From Lachnospiraceae bacterium (GTDB taxonomy: Bacteria; Bacillota; Clostridia; Lachnospirales; Lachnospiraceae), in NCBI GenBank assembly GCA_024694625.1, contig JAILJP010000042.1, positions 1 through 37,776 of the forward strand: a DNA stretch of 37,776 nucleotides, given 5' to 3'. The position numbers and the translations under genes are program-made. Under the pieces are notes generated by a model. The model was not told where the DNA came from, searched no databases, and saw nothing but the letters and a program-made list of their open reading frames with translations. Shown here in pieces: positions 18,074 through 37,776 of this stretch; position 1 is the stretch's first letter; each line of letters opens with the position of its first letter.

Positions 18074-19450
18074 ATGTTTCAAATAAATTATGACAATCCC
18101 ATCCATGTTCATTTCATGGGAATCGGCGGAATCAGCATGAGTGGACTTGCTGAAGTTTTGCTGGATCAAAAATTTAGTGTTAGCGGATCGGACAACAATC
18201 CTTCCGATATTACAAAGCATTTAGAGACTTTGGGCATCCATATTTCCTATCCCCAAAGCGCCGACAATATCACCGACGATATTGACTTGGTAGTGTATAC
18301 TGCAGCCATCCATCCCGACAATCCGGAGTTTGTGGCAGCCAAAGAAAAAAACATTCCCATGCTTAACAGAGCTCAGCTTTTGGGACAGATCATCAATCAC
18401 TACAATCGTTCCATCTGTGTAGCGGGAACTCACGGAAAAACCACTACCACTTCTATGATTGCTCAGATTCTCCTTCGTGGAAAAGATGAGCCTACCATTT
18501 CCGTAGGTGGAATATTGGATGCTATTCATTCCAACATTCACGTAGGTTCTTCCGATTTATTTTTGGCAGAGGCTTGTGAATACACCAACAGCTTCCACGA
18601 ATTCCATCCGAAGTATTCCGTTATTTTAAATGTAGAAGAAGATCACATGGACTTTTTCCATGATTTAAAAGAGATTCAGGAAAGCTTCCATAAATTTGCC
18701 ACCAACACCGCAAAAGACGGAGCCTTAATTATTGGCGGCGAAATTCCAAATTGCCAATTAATCACAAAGGATTTGGAATGCAAAATCATCACCTTCGGTT
18801 TTGATGATCGCTTCGATTACTACCCTACAGAAATCACCTATGATGATAAGGGATGTGCATCCTTTGTTCCTGTCGGTTTTCATAAGTCTCTTCCAAAGGT
18901 AGTTTTACACGTTCCGGGAAAGCACAATATCGGAAACGCTTTGGCAGCCATTGCACTGGCTCAGGAAATGAAGCTTCCTATGGAAGAAATCACCTTAGGA
19001 CTTTCTGATTTTGGTGGAGCCCACCGACGTTTCGAATTAAAAGGAACTTACAAAGGTGCAACCATTGTGGATGACTACGCTCATCATCCCACAGAAATCA
19101 AAGCATCCTTGGCGGCAGCGCAAAACTATCCCCACGATCGACTTGTAGTAGTTTTCCAGCCTCACACCTATACCAGAACAAAAGCCTTTTTGGACGATTT
19201 TGCTGAAGCACTTTCTCAAGCTGATTTGGTTATCCTGGCAAAGATTTATGCTGCCAGAGAAGACGATATTTACGGAGTAAGCTCCAAAGATATCCAAAGC
19301 AGAATTCAAAACAACGGAAAAGAATGTTTGTATTTCGAAACTTTTGAAGAGATTGAAACCTATTTGAGAAAAAATTTAATTCAGAATGATTTGTTAATAA
19401 CTATGGGCGCCGGAAATGTTGTAAACATTGGCGAAGACCTGTTAGCTTAA
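18074..19450 (+). CDS. murC: MurC, UDP-N-acetylmuramate--L-alanine ligase
   Basis: This is a 458-aa full-length MurC. It has the N-terminal Rossmann motif FMGIGGISMSGLAE, the ATP-binding P-loop GTHGKTTTT (residues 118-126), a central Mur ligase domain (EACEYTNSFHEFHP, NVEEDHMDFF) and a C-terminal domain with DDYAHHPTEIKA. It adds L-alanine to UDP-MurNAc, the first step of the stem peptide of peptidoglycan, in the cytoplasm. The start has AGGAGA upstream. It has its own promoter and terminator and so appears to be a single-gene unit. Confidence 0.97.
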   Translation: MFQINYDNPIHVHFMGIGGISMSGLAEVLLDQKFSVSGSDNNPSDITKHLETLGIHISYPQSADNITDDIDLVVYTAAIHPDNPEFVAAKEKNIPMLNRAQLLGQIINHYNRSICVAGTHGKTTTTSMIAQILLRGKDEPTISVGGILDAIHSNIHVGSSDLFLAEACEYTNSFHEFHPKYSVILNVEEDHMDFFHDLKEIQESFHKFATNTAKDGALIIGGEIPNCQLITKDLECKIITFGFDDRFDYYPTEITYDDKGCASFVPVGFHKSLPKVVLHVPGKHNIGNALAAIALAQEMKLPMEEITLGLSDFGGAHRRFELKGTYKGATIVDDYAHHPTEIKASLAAAQNYPHDRLVVVFQPHTYTRTKAFLDDFAEALSQADLVILAKIYAAREDDIYGVSSKDIQSRIQNNGKECLYFETFEEIETYLRKNLIQNDLLITMGAGNVVNIGEDLLA

Positions 19451-19453
19451 TAC

Positions 19454-19561
19454 TTATCCACATTATCCACAATGACTTTTGGAAAATTATTCCCGAAGCA
19501 TTGTGGATTTTTTTGTCCTTATTTTACAATGTTTTTCTTTCCTGACCACCACTTATCCACA
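19454..19561 (+). promoter_or_regulatory. cluster of three perfect DnaA boxes
   Basis: TTATCCACA, the DnaA box consensus, occurs exactly at 19454-19462, 19463-19471 and 19553-19561, all in the same orientation. The second copy is also part of the murC terminator stem. The cluster lies upstream of the promoter of the dnaD-like/dnaI-like replication operon, suggesting DnaA control or DnaA titration. Confidence 0.6.
19465..19514 (+). terminator. intrinsic terminator of murC
   Basis: The arms ATCCACAATG (19465-19474) and CATTGTGGAT (19499-19508) pair perfectly over 10 bases, followed by seven T. The 5' arm contains most of the second DnaA box. Confidence 0.85.
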
Positions 19562-19606
19562 TTTTGAGAAACCGCTTAACTACGGGCTTTGTGGGTTATT
19601 TTTTCC

Positions 19607-19634
19607 TTGCAACCACTTCTCATTATGCTATAAT
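19607..19634 (+). promoter_or_regulatory. promoter of the dnaD-like/dnaI-like/prs operon
   Basis: TTGCAA (19607-19612) and TATAAT (19629-19634) are spaced by 16 bases, and the -10 is extended (TGC directly before it). Transcription should start near 19641, giving a leader of about 80 bases. Confidence 0.75.
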
Positions 19635-19650
19635 CCATTACAGATTTAAC

Positions 19651-19713
19651 GGCAAATCGCCCGGGGGACTAGTTAGGGAGAAAATGAATTTGCCTTTGAG
19701 GAAGAGGGAGTAA
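19651..19713 (+). promoter_or_regulatory. operon leader with 7-bp stem and 9-codon upstream ORF
   Basis: GGCAAAT (19651-19657) can pair with ATTTGCC (19688-19694). A small frame at 19684-19713, MNLPLRKRE, has GGGAG three bases before its ATG and overlaps the AGGAAGAGGGAG that serves as ribosome site for the next gene. Its stop is six bases before that gene's ATG. Translation of this peptide is not proven. Confidence 0.3.
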
Positions 19714-19719
19714 TTAACT

Positions 19720-20757
19720 ATGTCTGATATTTCACTGCATACCGACGGACCCAGTTCCGTCACCTGCGTATCAAACAACTTCATCGATCACTATATGGCA
19801 GAAGCCAATGGTGAGTACGTTAAAATTTATCTGTATTTACTTCGTTGTCTCGGACGAGATGACAACGATTTTTCCATTACAACCATAGCACAGCACTTAG
19901 GCCATACCGACTTAGACGTTAAACGAGCTTTACAATATTGGGAAGCTCGCCATTTGTTGCGCTTAGAATATGACTGGAACCAGCAATTGGTAGGAATCTG
20001 CCTTGTGGATGCCACTCCAAAAGAAGTAAATGCTTCTACCCCTTTGGTCATCAAAGAGGCTGCTCCCAAGCGTCCCGTTTCCGCCAACTACACTCCGGAA
20101 GAACTTCTTGTTTTCAACGACAACAAAGAAGTAAAGGATCTTTTGATGCTGGCACAGTGCTACTCCGGAAAACAGCTTACCCAAAACGATATGAACACCA
20201 TTATCTTTTGGTACGACGGTTTATCCATGTCTCCGGAACTCATTGAATTTTTGATTAATTACTGTGCGTCCAACGGACACACCAAGTTAAACTACATGAA
20301 CAAAATTGCCCTCTCTTGGGCAGATCAGGGTATTACCACCTTGGCTCAGGCTGAGTTAAACGTGGCACAGCACTCTGACAGCTATCGTTCTGTTATTTCA
20401 AATTTGGGACTGGGAAATCGTTCCCTAAATCCCGCAGAACTTTCCTTCTTAAACATTTGGACGAAGGAATACGGATTTTCTTCTGACATTATTGGAGAAG
20501 CATGCTCCAGAGCAAAGATGAGAGGCACCAGTGCACCTATGAAATACGCTCATCGTATTTTGGAAGGTTGGCACAACAGCGGTGTTACATCTCTAAACGA
20601 TGTAAATGCACTGGATATGGAATATGCCAACAAGGTTGCCGCACAAAAAACTGTGGCTGCCACCAAAATTAGTCGTCCGACAAAAGCACACAATTTCAGC
20701 GAGCGTACCGACAATGATTGGGATGCTTTGGAATTGGAATTGTTGCAAAAGAAATAG
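19720..20757 (+). CDS. DnaD/DnaB-like replication initiation protein
   Basis: This is a 345-aa protein. Residues ~30-95 form a winged-helix (YLYLLRCLGRDDNDFSITTIAQHLG). Two DnaD-like C-terminal domains (DDBH2/DnaB_2) follow, at ~123-205 and ~230-290. Each ends with the YxxxIxxxW signature: YMNKIALSW (192-200) and YAHRILEGW (276-284). In Bacillus, DnaD and DnaB help load the helicase with DnaI; the two-domain layout is closer to DnaB, the HTH to DnaD. It lies nine bases upstream of the DnaI-like loader, as dnaB-dnaI do in Bacillus. Its role in helicase loading is therefore well supported, though DnaD versus DnaB orthology is open. Confidence 0.9.
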   Translation: MSDISLHTDGPSSVTCVSNNFIDHYMAEANGEYVKIYLYLLRCLGRDDNDFSITTIAQHLGHTDLDVKRALQYWEARHLLRLEYDWNQQLVGICLVDATPKEVNASTPLVIKEAAPKRPVSANYTPEELLVFNDNKEVKDLLMLAQCYSGKQLTQNDMNTIIFWYDGLSMSPELIEFLINYCASNGHTKLNYMNKIALSWADQGITTLAQAELNVAQHSDSYRSVISNLGLGNRSLNPAELSFLNIWTKEYGFSSDIIGEACSRAKMRGTSAPMKYAHRILEGWHNSGVTSLNDVNALDMEYANKVAAQKTVAATKISRPTKAHNFSERTDNDWDALELELLQKK

Positions 20758-20766
20758 GAGGGGATT

Positions 20767-21744
20767 ATGGACCTGACACAATCGGAATACGATTCCATCA
20801 TGCGGGAATATGAAGAACGACGCCTATACAATGCGGAAGTTATCCGCAAACGACGCCTTGAATTAGAAGAAACCCTTCCCGCCTATTTTGAAATCGACAA
20901 AAAAATATCTTCCGCCAGCATGGACTACTTCAAGAGTCAGCTGACGTCCAACAAAATGGATAAAGAAGAATACCACAAAAGTATTCAGCGCTTTACAAAA
21001 GAAAAGGAATCCATTTTGGAAAAGGCCGGATATCCAACAGATTATCTGGAGCCAATTTATGACTGTAAAGATTGTAAAGATACAGGATATATTGAAGGCG
21101 AAAAATGCCATTGTTTGAAACAGGCAGCCATCAAAAAGCTGTATCCCCACACCAATCTATCCAATAAATATCAAAATGTTTCTTTCAAACATTTTTCCTT
21201 GGATTACTACGACAGAAATGATAATGACGCAAAAACGAATTTATCTTCTTTCGATTATGCTAAAAATGCTTTGGATTATTGCCAAGATTTTGTGAAGAAT
21301 TTTAATTCCACAGGTGGTAATATTCTTTTGTATGGGAACACAGGCCTTGGTAAGACCTATTTGTCTACCTGTATCGGTTTAGAATTGTTAGAACAGGGCT
21401 ACTCTGTTTTATACCTTACCGCTACGCAATTACTGGATGTGTTCGAAAAGAAAATGAAAGATCGCGGCACTTCAGCCCGTCAGGATTTTATGCTACTTTC
21501 CGAAGTAGATCTTTTAATTATTGATGATTTGGGAACGGAATTCCAAAATTCCTTTAATATCCCCAACGTTTTAGACTGCATCAATAATCGAATTCTTTCA
21601 GAGAAGTCTACGGTGATTTCCACCAATCTGAATTTAAGAGACTTGCAGACCTGTTACACTGAGCGATTCATCTCAAGAATTGTAGAAAACTACAAGCTCC
21701 TTCGTTTAACAGGAAAAGACATACGTATCCAAAAAAATTTATAA
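20767..21744 (+). CDS. DnaI/DnaC-like AAA+ helicase loader
   Basis: This is a 325-aa ATPase. The N-terminal ~95 residues are helical and charged. A zinc-type motif Cys100-x2-Cys103 ... Cys114-x-Cys116 follows, as in DnaI. The AAA+ core has Walker A GNTGLGKT (190-197), Walker B LLIIDDLG, a sensor-1 STNL, and an arginine-finger region ERFISRIVENY. DnaI/DnaC proteins deliver the replicative helicase to the origin. It starts nine bases after the DnaD-like gene with AGGAGGGG upstream. An IstB-type transposition ATPase is unlikely because no transposase is nearby and the zinc motif is present. Confidence 0.92.
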   Translation: MDLTQSEYDSIMREYEERRLYNAEVIRKRRLELEETLPAYFEIDKKISSASMDYFKSQLTSNKMDKEEYHKSIQRFTKEKESILEKAGYPTDYLEPIYDCKDCKDTGYIEGEKCHCLKQAAIKKLYPHTNLSNKYQNVSFKHFSLDYYDRNDNDAKTNLSSFDYAKNALDYCQDFVKNFNSTGGNILLYGNTGLGKTYLSTCIGLELLEQGYSVLYLTATQLLDVFEKKMKDRGTSARQDFMLLSEVDLLIIDDLGTEFQNSFNIPNVLDCINNRILSEKSTVISTNLNLRDLQTCYTERFISRIVENYKLLRLTGKDIRIQKNL

Positions 21745-21774
21745 TATAGTATTCACAAATGGAGGACAGTGAAC

Positions 21775-22956
21775 ATGCCACGCAATGATGAAACTCTTGC
21801 AACCAAAAAACCTATTGCTCCCTTGGGCATCATTCCCTTGGAAAGTATTTCCGACATCGGTCAAAAAGTTGACCAGTACTTGTCTCAGTGGAGAGCAGAT
21901 CGAAACAGCGATCATTTGGATGACATTACAAAATCCAGCTATCGCAGCGGATCTTACATTGTAAGTGCCAAGGTTCCCAGATTCGGTTCCGGCGAAGCAA
22001 AAGGTGAGATTTCCCAGTCTGTCAGAGGATTAGACGTTTACATTATGACAGACGTTACAAACTACAGCTTGACTTACAAGCTCTGTGGTCACACTAATCA
22101 CTATTCACCCGATGACCACTACGCAGATTTGAAACGTATCATTGCTGCTATTGAAGGAAAGGCAAATCGTATCACCGTAATCCTTCCTTTCTTATATGAA
22201 AGCAGACAGCACAGAAGAACTTCCAGAGAGTCTTTAGACTGTGCGATTGCATTGCAGGAATTAATTGCAATGGGCGTTGACAACATCATTACATTTGATG
22301 CACACGACCCCAGAGTACAGAACGCAATTCCTTTACATGGATTCGATACTGTACAGCCTGCATACCAGTTTATCAAGGGTATCTTGAAAAACGTAAAAGA
22401 CTTACAGATTGACAACGAACACTTAATGATTATCTCCCCTGACGAAGGCGGTACAAACCGTGCCGTATACATGGCTTCCGTTTTAGGTGTAGATATGGGT
22501 ATGTTCTACAAACGTCGTGATTATTCAAAGATCGTTGACGGAAGAAACCCCATCGTAGCTCATGAGTTCTTGGGAAGCTCCGTTGAAGGAAAAGACGTTA
22601 TCATCGTAGATGATATGATTTCTTCCGGCGAAAGTATGATTGACGTAGCAAAAGAATTAAAGAAGAGAAAAGCAAACCGTATCTTTACTGTTGCTACCTT
22701 CGGTCTCTTCACCAGCGGATTGGATAAATTCGATAAGGCTGTAGAAGAAGGTTTGATTTACAGAGTTGTTACTACAAACCTTACCTACCAGACACCGGAA
22801 TTACTTTCCCGTCCTTACTACATCAATTGCGATATGAGTAAGTACATTGCTTACATCATTGATACCTTAAACCATGATTGCACCATCGCATCATTGTTAG
22901 ATCCTTATGAAAGAATCGAAGCTCTTGTAAATAAATACAAAGCAGGTGAATACTAA
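21775..22956 (+). CDS. prs: ribose-phosphate pyrophosphokinase (PRPP synthetase)
   Basis: This is a 393-aa enzyme making PRPP from ribose-5-phosphate and ATP, for nucleotides, His and Trp. It shows the ATP/loop segment PFLYESRQHRRTSRES, TFDAHDPRVQ, and the PRPP-binding motif VDDMISSGESM. It is longer than the classic ~315-aa Prs, with ~60 extra N-terminal residues, a form common in Clostridia. The ATG at 21775 follows GGAGG with 9-base spacing. It is the last gene after the helicase loader (30-base gap), ended by a strong terminator. Confidence 0.95.
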   Translation: MPRNDETLATKKPIAPLGIIPLESISDIGQKVDQYLSQWRADRNSDHLDDITKSSYRSGSYIVSAKVPRFGSGEAKGEISQSVRGLDVYIMTDVTNYSLTYKLCGHTNHYSPDDHYADLKRIIAAIEGKANRITVILPFLYESRQHRRTSRESLDCAIALQELIAMGVDNIITFDAHDPRVQNAIPLHGFDTVQPAYQFIKGILKNVKDLQIDNEHLMIISPDEGGTNRAVYMASVLGVDMGMFYKRRDYSKIVDGRNPIVAHEFLGSSVEGKDVIIVDDMISSGESMIDVAKELKKRKANRIFTVATFGLFTSGLDKFDKAVEEGLIYRVVTTNLTYQTPELLSRPYYINCDMSKYIAYIIDTLNHDCTIASLLDPYERIEALVNKYKAGEY

Positions 22957-31535: not shown

Positions 31536-34500
31536 CTATTTTACGGTGACAGCCTTTACCTTTGACTTGGATCCGTAGACCTTTTTTCCGTCAATCAACT
31601 GATATGCTCGAATGTAGTAATAATACTTCTTCTTGCTGGTCAGTTTCTTGTTTGTCCAGTTGGACTTGGATGAGGGAACATCGGCAATCTTTTTGAAGCC
31701 TTTGTTCTTCTTGGTGCTTCGGTAAATGGTGTATCCCGTTGCAGAAGTATTCTTCTTCCAGCTCAACTTCGCCTTCTTTGCTGCCGAGCTCTTAACTTTA
31801 AAGCTTGGTGTGCTTACCAGCGTCTTTCCTGTCACGGTGGAAGATGTACCGTAATACTTCTTTCCGGCAATGGTCTTGTAAGCTTTTACGCTAATGTTGT
31901 AAGCCTTTGCCTGTTTCAAACCGCTAACTGTGTAGCTGTTTGAAGTGGTTGTCTTGGTGTAGGTCTTATTGTCCGCACTGTAAGTTACTTCATAACCGCT
32001 GGCGTGATTTACCTTGGTCCAAGAAACCTTAATCTTCTTATTGCTGGTTCCCTTTGCACTTAACTTCACAACACTTCCGATGGAAATGGTAAAGTACATG
32101 GTTCTGGTACCAGAGTAGTTGTTTACACCTGTAACTGTTACAGAAGCCACACCGGGATTGGTGTTATTGGCATAACTGATTACATAGTCACCACCACTAC
32201 CCTTTACAAGGTTTTCGCCCTGATAGGTTACGCTTACCGGAGGTGTCAAATTGGAACCGGTGTAAGTATCGTTGGAAATATTTCCAAAAGTACAGGTATT
32301 TACATTTCTCTGAATGATCTTGTAGGTTCCTGTCTTTACAAGACTTTGTCCTGCTACTGTAACTGTCGCTGTGTATGTAACGGTACCAACCTGAATGCAG
32401 GCATTTCCGTCAGTGCTACTATTGTAAGCCACGCTTGCAGGAAGCACGTTTCCGTTATTGTCCTTTACGGTAAGGGTCGGTTTGATTACATTTCCGGTAT
32501 AAGTATACTGGTCTGCAGCTCCTGATACACTTAAGTAATCTGATCCGAATACGATATTGAACGGTACCGTAATCGGTGTGTTTCTGTAATAGGTAGGCTG
32601 TAATGAGTCTACAATCACATATCCTGAGGTTGTGTAGTTGTTATCAGAGCCAACAGTGGTAATCTGATAATCCGTTCCATTTACCAAGGTATTGCCGCCG
32701 CATACTACCGTTACTCCCGGTGTAATGGCGCTTCCGGTATAAAGCTGGTCGGTAATGGTTACACAGCTTTCCGTCAGATTTGCATAAATCACAAAGGTCT
32801 GTGATGCATTGTTGTTTATGTAGTTGTTAATACCGGTTACCGTAACGGTAGCGGTTCCCGCATTTTTGTTGTTGGCAAACTCAATGGTGTAGTCCTGATC
32901 CTTAACCAGAATCTGACCGGAAGCATTGGTTACCGTATAATCAGGAGTCAGGCTTCTTCCGGTGTATGCCATTTCACTAGCGGTCAAAGCCAATGTGATA
33001 CCGCCTCCATAAGGAAGGATTACAAACTTAAATGGTGTTGCACTGTAGGTATTGTAGTTTCCTCCCAAAACAACCTGCGCCGTTGCCGGTGAAATCACAC
33101 CTCCGGCGTTGGTATTGTTGTTGTAAGAAATGGTATACATATCACTGTCAATGGGCACGGTAGCTGAAATCTCCGTATCATATACGTGGAATGCAGGTTC
33201 CATAGCTGAACCGTTATAGGTGGTTGCCCAGTAATAATATCCGTCTGTATCACTTTCAAAGTAGCTGTAGACGGTCCCTTCTTCATCATAGGTCTTTGTC
33301 AGTGTAGCGGTATCCGGATCAATCACCAGATTTGCAGGATTGATGGTCTTCTTTTGGATCACATAGGTTTCCGTAATGCTTCCGTAGAAACTGTTCTTTC
33401 CTTGGATCTTCAATTCCACACTGTCTTGTGCATTGATGCTGTCAGTAGGTGCAACCACGGTGTAATCCGTATCCTCTGTTAATGTGGAGGTAGGTGTGGT
33501 GGTCAAATTATTGACGGTAACGTCAGGCACCTGACTGGTTCCATTGTAAGTATAACTGTATGCGGATAGTTCAGACTGATACTTTGTACTGTCCGCAATA
33601 TCTTTACCAATGGTAAATGTCTTTGTGAACTTTCCGGTGTAGTTGCCCTTACCGGTTACGGTAATGGTAGGCACCTTCGTCGCATCATAGGCCGGATTGG
33701 TTGGATCACTGGTTGCCGCATCACGGTTGTTGGTCCACTCAATGGTATAGTCCGTATCTTTTACCAAGGTCTTATAGTTTGGCGTATTGCCGTGCTCAGG
33801 GTTATCGTTGGACACATCATGTATGATAAGTTCCGGCATAACCTGATTGCCAGTGTTCCAATCCTGAGTATCCACTGCCGACACTTCATATTCGTCGTCC
33901 ACACCGTCATCTGCGTCGTCTGTTTTTGGAATGGTAATTACCGTCCCGTCTACCTGCATACCACCATCGGTTCCCAAATCCTTTGGATTGATGGTAAAGG
34001 TGGTGGTAGTAGAGCCCTCATAGTATGCACTGCTTGCCGGCGCAGAAATCGTAATGGTATATGCACCTGCATTTACCATGGAAGCTCCGCCATAAGAAAC
34101 ATCATAATCCGTTCCCTCTGTCAAGGTCTTTGTAGAGTCTGCAAAGGTAACAGTAACTTTAAGGCTTGGTGTAAAGGCTTTTCCTGTGTATTCGGCCTCC
34201 TGTACTGCTTTTGTAATGGAAGCGGAGGAAAGGGCACATTTTGTTACGGTATATGTTGCGGAAGACACACTTCCGGTATAGTTTCCATTTCCCTGAACGG
34301 TAATGAATCCTGTATCTCCGGGTACAGTTACTAAAGGAGAGTATGTAACTGTAAAGTCACTGCCTTCTGTTAAGGTTCTTGTATTGCTGTTTACTGTAGC
34401 CGTTACTTCATAGGTAGGAAGCATTCCTGTTCCACCGGAGTAAGGAAGTTTTCCGTCTGCAGGTGTCAGACTAATCACACCTACGGAAGTCAAATCCACC

Positions 34501-37500
34501 GGGTCTATAGTAAAGGTTTTTGTTACCGAACCACTGTAGTTTCCATATCCATTAATATAAATCGTCGGCGCGTTATCTGCTGTATACGGCGCTGAATTAA
34601 TATTGTTGGCATAGGTTACATAATAATCCACATCTTCCTGAAGAACCGTTGTTCCTATCTTTACGGAAGAAATAGGGGGCTGAATCTCCTCACCGGTATA
34701 AGTATAGGTAGAAGATGCATCCGATAAAGTCACCGTCATTGTAGAAGCATCCAATTGGATTGGCTTAATGGTATAGGTAAATACCGCAGAGCCAAAGGCC
34801 TTGTCAGAATCCGTAACAGAAAGAGTAATCTCCGCTGTTCCCGCTTCCGTATTATTGGAATAGGTTGCTTTAAAAGGTGTGGCTGCAGTAGCTGCCATAT
34901 CGGAAAGTTTCCAGGTTTTGGCATCGGCACCTTTTAGGGCATATCGGATATTGGTGGTATCCGGAAGATAAACGGGATTTCCGTAGTTGTAGGTCTGGGC
35001 ATCAGAAGCGGACAGTGTCATCTTGCTTAAATCGTATTTAATATTGAAGTTCTTTATTACAGAACCACTGCCTGCTGTAAAGTATCCCATACCCGTAATG
35101 GTATATCCTGCTGTTCCAATATCAATATTGTTGGATAGAGCCGTAGTATAATGTGTGTTCTTTGTCAGTGCCACTCCATTGTAACTAAGGGAAACACCCG
35201 TAGGATTAATGGCACTTCCGGTATAGGTATAGGTGTCATTCAATCCGGTTACTTCCGCATCCGCAATATCACCATAGGAATATACGGTGTAGTAGCGCAT
35301 ACCGGTATAGTAATCTCCGTCTCCGGCAAAACTTAAGGTCACTTCTCCGGGAGTGGTCAGATTATCCAATCCATAAATAATGAATCCCTTGTTGTACTGA
35401 TACTTCACGGATGTACCATTTACAGACAGATAAAACTGAGTAGGATCAAAACTTGAAACAAAGTTGCCCTGTGCGTTTTTATCAATAATGTAGTTGTTGT
35501 TTCCAACATAGGCATCTGCCGAAGATACTCCTTCGTAGAAACTAAAGAGTGTCGTGTTGGAAATATCACCAATTACCTTGTAAGTAAGGGTTGTATAGGA
35601 AGATGTTAATTCCGTAGTGGATGCATAGTTTCCGCTTCCTGTACCGGTAATCGTAACGCTGTACTTTCCGGGAAGTTTGTAATCATCTCCATAGTTACTG
35701 TCCGCAACACCGTAAACCACGGTATAGTCGGTACCGTATTCCAAGGTAGTTCCGTCACTGTCTTTTACAATAAATCCGTTGGTTCCCTGATCGTTTGCCA
35801 CCGGCTTATGGATGGTTCCATCGTAATTGTAACTGGCAAAAGTAGTTCGGGCATAATCAGTTGTTTCATTGTCCCAAATGTATACTTGTGCGTTAGCCAA
35901 GCTCTTTTTGTTAATTACGAAGCTTCCGTAAATCTTACTGTTTCCAAAGTTTGACGATAAGGTAATTACCACATACCACACTCCGGAATTTACCGGTGTC
36001 GTCTTGGTCAGGCTGGTTACGTTGGAAGGAGTAACCGTTCCCGTTGCAGAAGATCCGTCGTAATAATCTACGGTATAATCTTCTCCCATCAAAAGCTTCG
36101 TCTTGTTAGCACCCACTCCGTAGTACAGATTCAAGTCACTTCCAAATGGTGTAATCTCTGCACCGGTGTAGTTCTTTGTATATCCGTTGGGATATGCAAG
36201 ATTTGTGCTGTCATATTCAATATTTGAGCGGATATCCGATGTGGTTCCCGTAGCATAAATCGCAATGTCATCGGGATTTGCCGCTTCTACCATTACCGTT
36301 CTGGTATGAGTTCCGGTAATGTTTGTATTTGTCATGGTAAGGGTTACTGTTTCCGCTGCGGTGGAAGACTCCGGGCCTACCGTAGTTCCGTCTGCTGTGG
36401 AAATGGTGTAATCCGTTCCCATAGTAAGAAGCTCGTCTCCGCTTCCTCCGTTATCAAATACCACCACGGTTAATCCGGAAGAGATGGTATTATAAACCGA
36501 AGGTTTAAAGTACATGGTCTTGTAAGGTGTTACCTCCGAACCGGTATAGGTATAATATGCCGTTTCATAGGTGGAGGATGAAATCACCGTTTCCGTAGAA
36601 ACGGATGCCGCATCATTTGGTACAAAGAATGCTTTCTTCACCTGTTTTGAAGCCACTGTCGTATTAAAAGGTGAAATGGTGTACTTCACCGTTAATGTTC
36701 TGGATGAGTAATAAATCGCTCCCGGATCAGATGATAAACTGATTCCCGGTGTAATAACGATGGTTGCCGTAACCGTATTTCCTACTTTTCTCGCAGTGGA
36801 GTCATAAGAAATGGAATAATAGGTACTAGGCACTTCTGCTCCGCTACTGTCCAAAAGCTTAATCACCGGACGTCCTGTCAAACCAAGATATAAGGTATCA
36901 AAGGTAACCACGTTGTCGCTGGTATTGCTGATGGCAGCTGAAGTCTTATGTACTTCAAAACCGTTGGTGTTGCTGTCAATACATGCATAGGTGTATTCCA
37001 CACGATATCCGTTGGCCGCATCTGCAATATCATCACCAATACTGTAATCTACGCTAATGGTTCCTTCGTAGTTGTTGATACCAGTAATGGTTGCCGTCTT
37101 TGCACCTACGAAGCTGTTGTCGTCATAGGTTACGGTGTAATCTGTGCTTTCCACCAAAGGTGTCGTGGTGGATGAGGCTCTCACTGTAAACTCCGGAACA
37201 TTGTCTCCGTCTGCATCTGCCTGTTCTACCACAAAGTTGGAAATATCCTTTCTGGTAATGGAATAGGTAAGATTTACGGTTGTATTTGCATAGTTTCCAA
37301 TACCGTTAATGGTTACCGTGGGTTTCAAAACGCTTCCGCTGGAATCCAAGGTGGTAACATCTACGTTGTTGGAATAGCTGATGGTGTAATCTGTTCCACT
37401 AATCAATGGAGTATCTCCGTTTTTCACAGATACTCTCGCATAGGTTGCGGAACCGGTATATGCCATGGTAGCACTTCCGTCTAAAGTTGTAGTCTGATTG

Positions 37501-37776
37501 GTAAGAGCGGTTCCGTAATCCAGATTTTCCAAAGTAAAACTTAAGGTCTGTCCAGATGAAGGTGTAATCTCAAAGTAGAGCTTTACAGTTCCGTAAAGAT
37601 TTCCAGTACCTTTCACTGTTACGGTTGGAGGAAGAGAAGCATCTGCTGCCGCCACCTTTGTGTTGTTGGCATAGTATACTTCATATCCCGCATCGGAACT
37701 CAAAGGTGTTCCGTCCGCTAACGTAACGGTTACTGCTGGAGTTACCGCACTTCCCGTATAGCTATAAGACTTACTT
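31536..37776 (-). CDS. giant repeat-containing secreted protein, N-terminal part beyond window
   Basis: The frame is open to the right edge (2,079 codons visible), so the true start lies outside. Most of it is built from degenerate ~80-110-aa units: YTGS..TP..(V)TV, then LxxGTDYTVSYxNN, then a closing V/ITGxGNYxGT...TFTI. I count about 18 closings. The C-terminal 176 residues are two Fn3-like domains (VSWTKVNHASGYEVTYS; LSWKKNTSATGYTIYRS) with 39 lysines and no sorting signal or membrane helix. The basic end could hold the protein to the anionic wall electrostatically. It resembles large Lachnospiraceae adhesin-like proteins; function is unknown. It precedes the sortase and LRR genes on the same strand. 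Confidence 0.85.
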   Translation of the reverse strand, partial: SKSYSYTGSAVTPAVTVTLADGTPLSSDAGYEVYYANNTKVAAADASLPPTVTVKGTGNLYGTVKLYFEITPSSGQTLSFTLENLDYGTALTNQTTTLDGSATMAYTGSATYARVSVKNGDTPLISGTDYTISYSNNVDVTTLDSSGSVLKPTVTINGIGNYANTTVNLTYSITRKDISNFVVEQADADGDNVPEFTVRASSTTTPLVESTDYTVTYDDNSFVGAKTATITGINNYEGTISVDYSIGDDIADAANGYRVEYTYACIDSNTNGFEVHKTSAAISNTSDNVVTFDTLYLGLTGRPVIKLLDSSGAEVPSTYYSISYDSTARKVGNTVTATIVITPGISLSSDPGAIYYSSRTLTVKYTISPFNTTVASKQVKKAFFVPNDAASVSTETVISSSTYETAYYTYTGSEVTPYKTMYFKPSVYNTISSGLTVVVFDNGGSGDELLTMGTDYTISTADGTTVGPESSTAAETVTLTMTNTNITGTHTRTVMVEAANPDDIAIYATGTTSDIRSNIEYDSTNLAYPNGYTKNYTGAEITPFGSDLNLYYGVGANKTKLLMGEDYTVDYYDGSSATGTVTPSNVTSLTKTTPVNSGVWYVVITLSSNFGNSKIYGSFVINKKSLANAQVYIWDNETTDYARTTFASYNYDGTIHKPVANDQGTNGFIVKDSDGTTLEYGTDYTVVYGVADSNYGDDYKLPGKYSVTITGTGSGNYASTTELTSSYTTLTYKVIGDISNTTLFSFYEGVSSADAYVGNNNYIIDKNAQGNFVSSFDPTQFYLSVNGTSVKYQYNKGFIIYGLDNLTTPGEVTLSFAGDGDYYTGMRYYTVYSYGDIADAEVTGLNDTYTYTGSAINPTGVSLSYNGVALTKNTHYTTALSNNIDIGTAGYTITGMGYFTAGSGSVIKNFNIKYDLSKMTLSASDAQTYNYGNPVYLPDTTNIRYALKGADAKTWKLSDMAATAATPFKATYSNNTEAGTAEITLSVTDSDKAFGSAVFTYTIKPIQLDASTMTVTLSDASSTYTYTGEEIQPPISSVKIGTTVLQEDVDYYVTYANNINSAPYTADNAPTIYINGYGNYSGSVTKTFTIDPVDLTSVGVISLTPADGKLPYSGGTGMLPTYEVTATVNSNTRTLTEGSDFTVTYSPLVTVPGDTGFITVQGNGNYTGSVSSATYTVTKCALSSASITKAVQEAEYTGKAFTPSLKVTVTFADSTKTLTEGTDYDVSYGGASMVNAGAYTITISAPASSAYYEGSTTTTFTINPKDLGTDGGMQVDGTVITIPKTDDADDGVDDEYEVSAVDTQDWNTGNQVMPELIIHDVSNDNPEHGNTPNYKTLVKDTDYTIEWTNNRDAATSDPTNPAYDATKVPTITVTGKGNYTGKFTKTFTIGKDIADSTKYQSELSAYSYTYNGTSQVPDVTVNNLTTTPTSTLTEDTDYTVVAPTDSINAQDSVELKIQGKNSFYGSITETYVIQKKTINPANLVIDPDTATLTKTYDEEGTVYSYFESDTDGYYYWATTYNGSAMEPAFHVYDTEISATVPIDSDMYTISYNNNTNAGGVISPATAQVVLGGNYNTYSATPFKFVILPYGGGITLALTASEMAYTGRSLTPDYTVTNASGQILVKDQDYTIEFANNKNAGTATVTVTGINNYINNNASQTFVIYANLTESCVTITDQLYTGSAITPGVTVVCGGNTLVNGTDYQITTVGSDNNYTTSGYVIVDSLQPTYYRNTPITVPFNIVFGSDYLSVSGAADQYTYTGNVIKPTLTVKDNNGNVLPASVAYNSSTDGNACIQVGTVTYTATVTVAGQSLVKTGTYKIIQRNVNTCTFGNISNDTYTGSNLTPPVSVTYQGENLVKGSGGDYVISYANNTNPGVASVTVTGVNNYSGTRTMYFTISIGSVVKLSAKGTSNKKIKVSWTKVNHASGYEVTYSADNKTYTKTTTSNSYTVSGLKQAKAYNISVKAYKTIAGKKYYGTSSTVTGKTLVSTPSFKVKSSAAKKAKLSWKKNTSATGYTIYRSTKKNKGFKKIADVPSSKSNWTNKKLTSKKKYYYYIRAYQLIDGKKVYGSKSKVKAVTVK
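31539..32066 (-). other. C-terminal pair of lysine-rich Fn3-like domains
   Basis: This covers the last 176 codons of the giant protein: two Fn3-like domains, each with a W-K strand (KVSWTK, LSWKK), SGY/TGY turn and a KxYYY/KKYYG strand (GKKYYG, GKKVYG). Lysine makes up 22% of residues, unlike the acidic Thr/Tyr-rich repeats before it. Confidence 0.7.
32067..37776 (-). repeat. protein-level tandem repeat array (~18 degenerate units)
   Basis: The repeat core appears as DYTISYSNN, DYTVTYDDN, DYTVDYYDG, DYYVTYANN, DFTVTYSP, DYTIEWTNN, DYTIEFANN, DYVISYANN and similar, each ~25-35 residues before a GNY/NNY closing motif. Units differ strongly from each other, so this is an old array rather than a recent DNA-level expansion. 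Confidence 0.75.

Follow-up and report, generated by a model that had tools for sequence, protein, structure and literature searches.

The window, that is, the whole 37,776-nucleotide stretch of DNA analysed, contains a murC gene encoding UDP-N-acetylmuramate-L-alanine ligase (18074..19450, + strand; TIGR01082, 6.6e-144), followed on the same strand by a presumed operon of three genes. The first (19720..20757) encodes a DnaD-like initiation protein of the DnaB_2/DnaD_dom type (PF07261, 6.8e-39; TIGR01446, 1.9e-24), the second (20767..21744) encodes a dnaI/dnaC-type AAA+ helicase loader with PDB matches to DnaC (6qel, 6e-16) and the primosomal protein DnaI (4m4w, 2e-10), and the third (21769..22956; alternative start ATG at 21775) is a prs-type PRPP synthetase gene (NF005299, 5.9e-177). 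These matches bear out the first-pass annotation, in which the genes downstream of the boxes described below had been called DnaD-like and DnaI-like. Wherever the loci of same-family relatives extend sufficiently, the dnaD-dnaI-prs order was almost always retained. Elsewhere in the window, a very large protein of a repetitive surface type (2055 aa if translated from a TTG start) is encoded at 31536-37703 and may run past the contig end.

An exact-match scan of the 37.8 kb located three copies of TTATCCACA, all on the + strand and all between murC and the dnaD-dnaI-prs operon. Box 1 (19454-19462) begins 3 bp past the murC stop codon, box 2 (19463-19471) abuts box 1 at a 9-bp pitch, and box 3 (19553-19561) is promoter-proximal, its end lying 67 bp before the predicted -10. 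The earlier observation of three perfect same-orientation DnaA boxes within 108 bases was thus reproduced. The window has no further exact copy, and boxes 1 and 2 constitute the sole abutting pair, TTATCCACATTATCCACA, in the 2.34-Mb draft genome (123 contigs), which carries approximately 41 copies of TTATCCACA and 0 copies of the reversed-pattern control of the pair. The only other tight box clusters in this genome were found on contig C16 (67-224), on the rpmH/rnpA side of oriC, and on contig C38 (8993-9090). The latter (L005:3994-4091) consists of an abutting TTATGCACA/TTATCCACA pair and one opposite exact box, and is located between two hybrid histidine-kinase genes. The three copies match the 9-mer DnaA-box consensus and are the same box as that at the rpmH-side oriC of this genome; among the boxes at the dnaA/oriC loci of 13 relatives, TTATCCACA is the most frequent. 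The DnaA encoded by this genome has the C-terminal domain for box binding (PF08299, 2.6e-28).

A secondary origin would also fit the clustering of the boxes, as would a nucleotide-exchange site of the datA/DARS type. However, neither a DnaA-trio, sought as a TA[GAC] run on either strand, nor a strong AT-rich block was present in 19441-19720, and canonical rpmH/dnaA oriC boxes are located elsewhere in the genome. The second-origin reading was rejected because of the missing trio and the oriC elsewhere, and the explanation as a whole is very improbable. To our knowledge, DnaA nucleotide-exchange sites have not been described for Firmicutes.

Box 2 doubles as the 5' side of the hairpin in the intrinsic terminator of murC (19465..19514, + strand), which consists of the stem ATCCACAATG/CATTGTGGAT and a 24-nt loop, followed by 7 T residues. 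This hairpin was found by folding (-21.2 kcal/mol; z -6.25; equalled by 0 of 200 shuffles), a terminator scan with an 8-nt loop limit having missed the 24-nt loop. An Rfam search of the region gave no match, and the fold of the 5' UTR was not better than those of shuffled sequences.

In 61 related genomes, the DnaD homologue was located and, wherever possible, the murC-dnaD gap was read. The exact box was present in 27 of the 31 same-family gaps (dinucleotide shuffles: mean 0.2, maximum 2), where 69 boxes were forward and 3 reverse, and in 8 of 10 gaps from other families of the order. Velocimicrobium porci (L047) showed the same architecture as the window. A held-out set, for which a forecast was set down before the genomes were fetched, comprised 80 more same-family genomes and three family members from the class search described below, nearly all from other genera, and gave 77 readable gaps. 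Exact boxes were found in 68 of these (161 forward and 9 reverse), and the first box began 0-10 bp past the murC stop codon in 58 of the 71 box-bearing held-out gaps. Conservation of the boxes ahead of the operon across the Lachnospiraceae, a family of gut and rumen bacteria, was a check that the first-pass annotation had proposed, and it is strongly borne out. Exact boxes were missing in some genera (9 of the 77 held-out gaps, as well as L030, L033, L045 and L096), and several same-genus relatives have one exact box together with degenerate TTATCAACA/TTATTAACA copies.

As a lineage control, DnaI was searched for across the class, and 57 upstream regions from Clostridia outside the order were obtained (L144, L146, L147 and L149-L202). 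dnaD was recognisable at 54 of the 57 dnaI loci, in no case after murC. A single exact box, in reverse orientation, was detected in these regions, and the box was absent upstream of dnaD in 53 of 54. Moreover, the boxes are gone where dnaD lies directly behind murC (gap 60 in L026, 20 in L042 and L104, and 4 in L109, and an overlap in L100). Since the boxes are kept in most of the family, all but absent outside the order and lost where the gap leaves them no room, the box cluster is a trait of the Lachnospirales murC-dnaD junction.

T-tailed hairpins with a box as one arm were present in 23 of the 42 first-set gaps and in 34 of the 77 held-out gaps; when the boxes were fixed and the remaining letters were shuffled, the value was 0.16 against the 34 held-out gaps. 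Roughly half of the genera have such a composite, with differing stem sequences. The stem beyond the box varies between genera with complementarity kept, and 27 distinct extensions were counted in the held-out set. A strict composite pattern occurred 12 times in the 61 whole genomes, 10 of them at murC-dnaD, and the reversed control gave 0. Given that box 2 is a terminator arm and that composites are this frequent, selection for the terminator hairpin of murC might have produced the boxes as a mere by-product. However, the stem includes neither box 1 nor box 3, the box core remains constant while the stem extensions vary, and many genera have boxes without the composite. The by-product explanation is largely refuted by the conserved boxes outside stems and is hardly credible.

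Among perfect same-strand pairs within 30 bp in the 61 genomes, a pitch of 9 was seen 47 times, with murC-dnaD accounting for 29, the region upstream of hpf for 9, oriC for 2 and other places for 7, whereas the identified oriC loci favour pitches of 11 (6 times) and 12 (2 times). At murC-dnaD in the relatives, 29 of 34 perfect pairs have 0 bp between the boxes. According to PMC11317965, E. coli DnaA prefers a gap of 2-3 bp, corresponding to a pitch of 11-12, and the addition of 1 bp to a 3-bp gap strongly weakens binding. The junction resembles the E. coli double boxes found by ChIP-seq at nrdA, polA, purH and DARS2 in having same-orientation pairs upstream of replication or nucleotide genes. 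It differs from them in that boxes 1 and 2 are separated by 0 bp and not by 2-3 bp, so that they do not form an E. coli-type double box; no pair with a 3-bp gap occurs in the window, and an oriC-like pitch of 11-12 is uncommon at murC-dnaD. Because the 0-bp gap differs both from the E. coli gap and from the local oriC pitch of 11-12, DnaA may not occupy the abutting boxes simultaneously.

The difference in pitch from oriC within the same genomes, and the concentration of the 47 perfect 18-mers at two operons (dnaD and hpf), could instead reflect a protein other than DnaA that reads TTATCCACATTATCCACA as one operator. This is improbable in view of the single and triple boxes, the pitches of 12 and 21, and the degenerate TTATNCACA and TTATCAACA typical of DnaA sites, all of which occur at the same places, and of the identity of the 9-mer to the oriC box.

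Exact and often abutting boxes were also observed upstream of hpf, the gene for a ribosome hibernation factor, in roughly half of the Lachnospiraceae genomes analysed (loci L113, L116, L118, L132, L135, L136, L139, L142, L071 and L081, with secA after hpf where the locus reaches); they were absent upstream of hpf in the window's own genus. hpf is thus a possible second recurrent target of DnaA. In two genera (L061 and L085), an abutting TTATCCACA pair lies upstream of trmB, a tRNA (guanine-N7) methyltransferase-like gene. An exceptionally dense array of exact boxes flanks dnaA on both sides at L083 (G023 contig C132, 600-2630). The idea that the unassigned tandem pairs of the relatives represent oriC was ruled out, since this applies to one locus only (L083) and most of the pairs lie upstream of hpf.

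A sigma-A promoter with a TG extension (TTGCAA-16-TATAAT) was predicted at 19607..19634 on the + strand, with a predicted transcription start site at about 19641. Between box 3 and the -35 there is a partly conserved imperfect inverted repeat (19568..19601, + strand; PWM 20.7 bits; consensus about AAACCCTTGATTTTACTGGGTTTGTGGGCAATTT), which occupies the same place in the dnaD upstream regions of many genera and could be the site of a second regulator or a hairpin. The placement of the boxes relative to the predicted -10 was analysed in 93 regions, about one per genus, with -10 positions swapped among genomes as the null. The nearest box end lay 40-100 bp before the -10 in 67 of the 93 regions, compared with 39.7 expected and a maximum of 53 in 5000 swaps, and the box-to--10 distances showed a periodicity of approximately 10 bp (Rayleigh 0.51, reached by 0 of 5000 swaps), to which the 9-bp pair pitch itself contributes in part; all the regions are of shared ancestry, so that the p-values do not refer to independent events and the apparent number of independent cases is inflated, and the -10 is probably wrongly chosen in a few genomes (e.g. 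L025, L262 and L143), which blurs the phasing statistics. The spacers between box and -10 had a mean identity of 36% in these regions.

The preferred box-to--10 distances were about 49, 59, 68 and 78 bp, with the boxes upstream of the -35; as a whole, the box positions fall into two groups ahead of the -10, one at about 50-100 bp and the other at about 150-270 bp from it. A strong extended -10 was present in 89 regions, and none of their 192 exact forward boxes overlapped the -35 or was located downstream of it. In the held-out set, the promoter-proximal boxes clustered at approximately 48-53, 58-60, 66-72 and 76-79 bp before the predicted -10, and 16, 9 and 9 of 70 distances fell in 66-71, 47-52 and 76-80 bp, respectively. 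The main peak recurred as we had forecast, but the forecast of a single dominant distance held only in part: neighbouring peaks about one helical turn apart share the distribution. As at promoters of a DnaA regulon, the boxes occupy constrained positions relative to the predicted promoters and are conserved across relatives.

The main rival explanation is titration, in which the cluster would mainly be a DnaA sink near oriC that delays initiation, its effects on dnaD being incidental. This would agree with the presence of several consensus boxes and with the distances between dnaD and dnaA where both are on the same contig: 46 kb in G057, 205 kb in G135 and 139 kb in G012, an assembly flagged as 6% contaminated. 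In B. subtilis, oriC-proximal DnaA-box clusters titrate DnaA (PMC5295017). However, preferred, helix-phased distances to a promoter would not be expected from titration, nor would a single orientation or the loss of the boxes together with the gap at the five loci mentioned above, and as the main role of the cluster titration appears unlikely. Because of the preferred promoter distances, the lack of boxes at or below the -35 and the single orientation, control of the operon is favoured over pure titration, and the murC-dnaD intergenic region is probably a DnaA-responsive control region for dnaD-dnaI-prs. The first-pass annotation had offered both possibilities; conservation and promoter distances support its proposal that DnaA could regulate how much of its partners is supplied, with which titration may coexist. 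The terminator overlap, the 9-bp pitch and the promoter distances go beyond that annotation.

Box identity, conservation, orientation, spacing, phasing to the predicted promoter and overlap with the terminator were directly established. For the rest, namely binding by DnaA, the direction of its effect, looping and feedback, we infer the following scheme. DnaA would bind abutting boxes arranged head to tail. These form two clusters, of which the first is at the murC end and built into the terminator and the second lies approximately 50-90 bp upstream of the extended -10 sigma-A promoter. As no box overlaps the -35 or -10, upstream activation or modulation is more likely than steric repression: from promoter-proximal boxes on preferred helix faces upstream of the -35, bound DnaA would most likely activate or modulate RNA polymerase. 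DnaA molecules at the two clusters could interact by looping. Supply of the partners in helicase loading, together with that of PRPP for nucleotides, would then track free or ATP-bound DnaA. Inhibition of cooperative DnaA binding by DnaD is reported for B. subtilis (PMC5295017; also the title of Bonilla and Grossman 2012), so that DnaD could close a feedback loop.

DnaA is a known transcription factor (PMC4447404, PMC8203912 and PMC11317965). The arrangement is like that of the B. subtilis DnaA regulon (sda, ywlC, trmE-noc and others) in that clusters of TTATCCACA-like boxes lie upstream of genes; there the clusters are DnaA-bound, some acting on transcription and some titrating, whereas binding is predicted here. 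It is unlike that regulon in that a helicase-loader operon would be targeted, in the abutting of boxes, and in the placement of one box within a terminator; dnaD, dnaB and dnaI are not among the direct DnaA targets of B. subtilis listed in PMC4447404. A term search of a review of DnaA transcription targets (PMC8203912) gave a single helicase-related gene, dnaB of Caulobacter, with predicted boxes. DnaA would act on the helicase step at the gene level in both cases, but in Caulobacter, a member of a different phylum, the target is the helicase gene itself and no fixed architecture is described. In a literature search with most subscription journals outside its scope, no report described DnaA boxes ahead of dnaD-dnaI, the abutting 18-mer, a terminator built on a DnaA box, or a link between DnaA boxes and hpf. 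Because of this scope, priority for the dnaD-dnaI boxes, the 18-mer and the box terminator cannot be claimed.

Taken as a sequence module, the junction is real, conserved and lineage-specific, with an unusual spacing and a dual-use terminator, and a regulatory role is most likely. A wider picture can be put forward tentatively. Lachnospirales DnaA might use abutting, helix-phased pairs for gene regulation as opposed to the 11-12-bp pitch at oriC, and might govern a small conserved regulon of the helicase-loader operon and, in many genera, hpf, with the murC boxes doubling as terminator; initiation capacity, nucleotide supply and ribosome idling would follow one initiator signal. We know of no mechanism in Firmicutes by which helicase-loading capacity is matched to initiator activity. 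If the proposed control is true, there would be a direct feed-forward from the initiator to the helicase loader, with a possible feedback through DnaD, in a dominant gut family, and the 9-bp regulatory pitch against the 11-12-bp oriC pitch may offer a way to tell the two jobs of DnaA apart by sequence.
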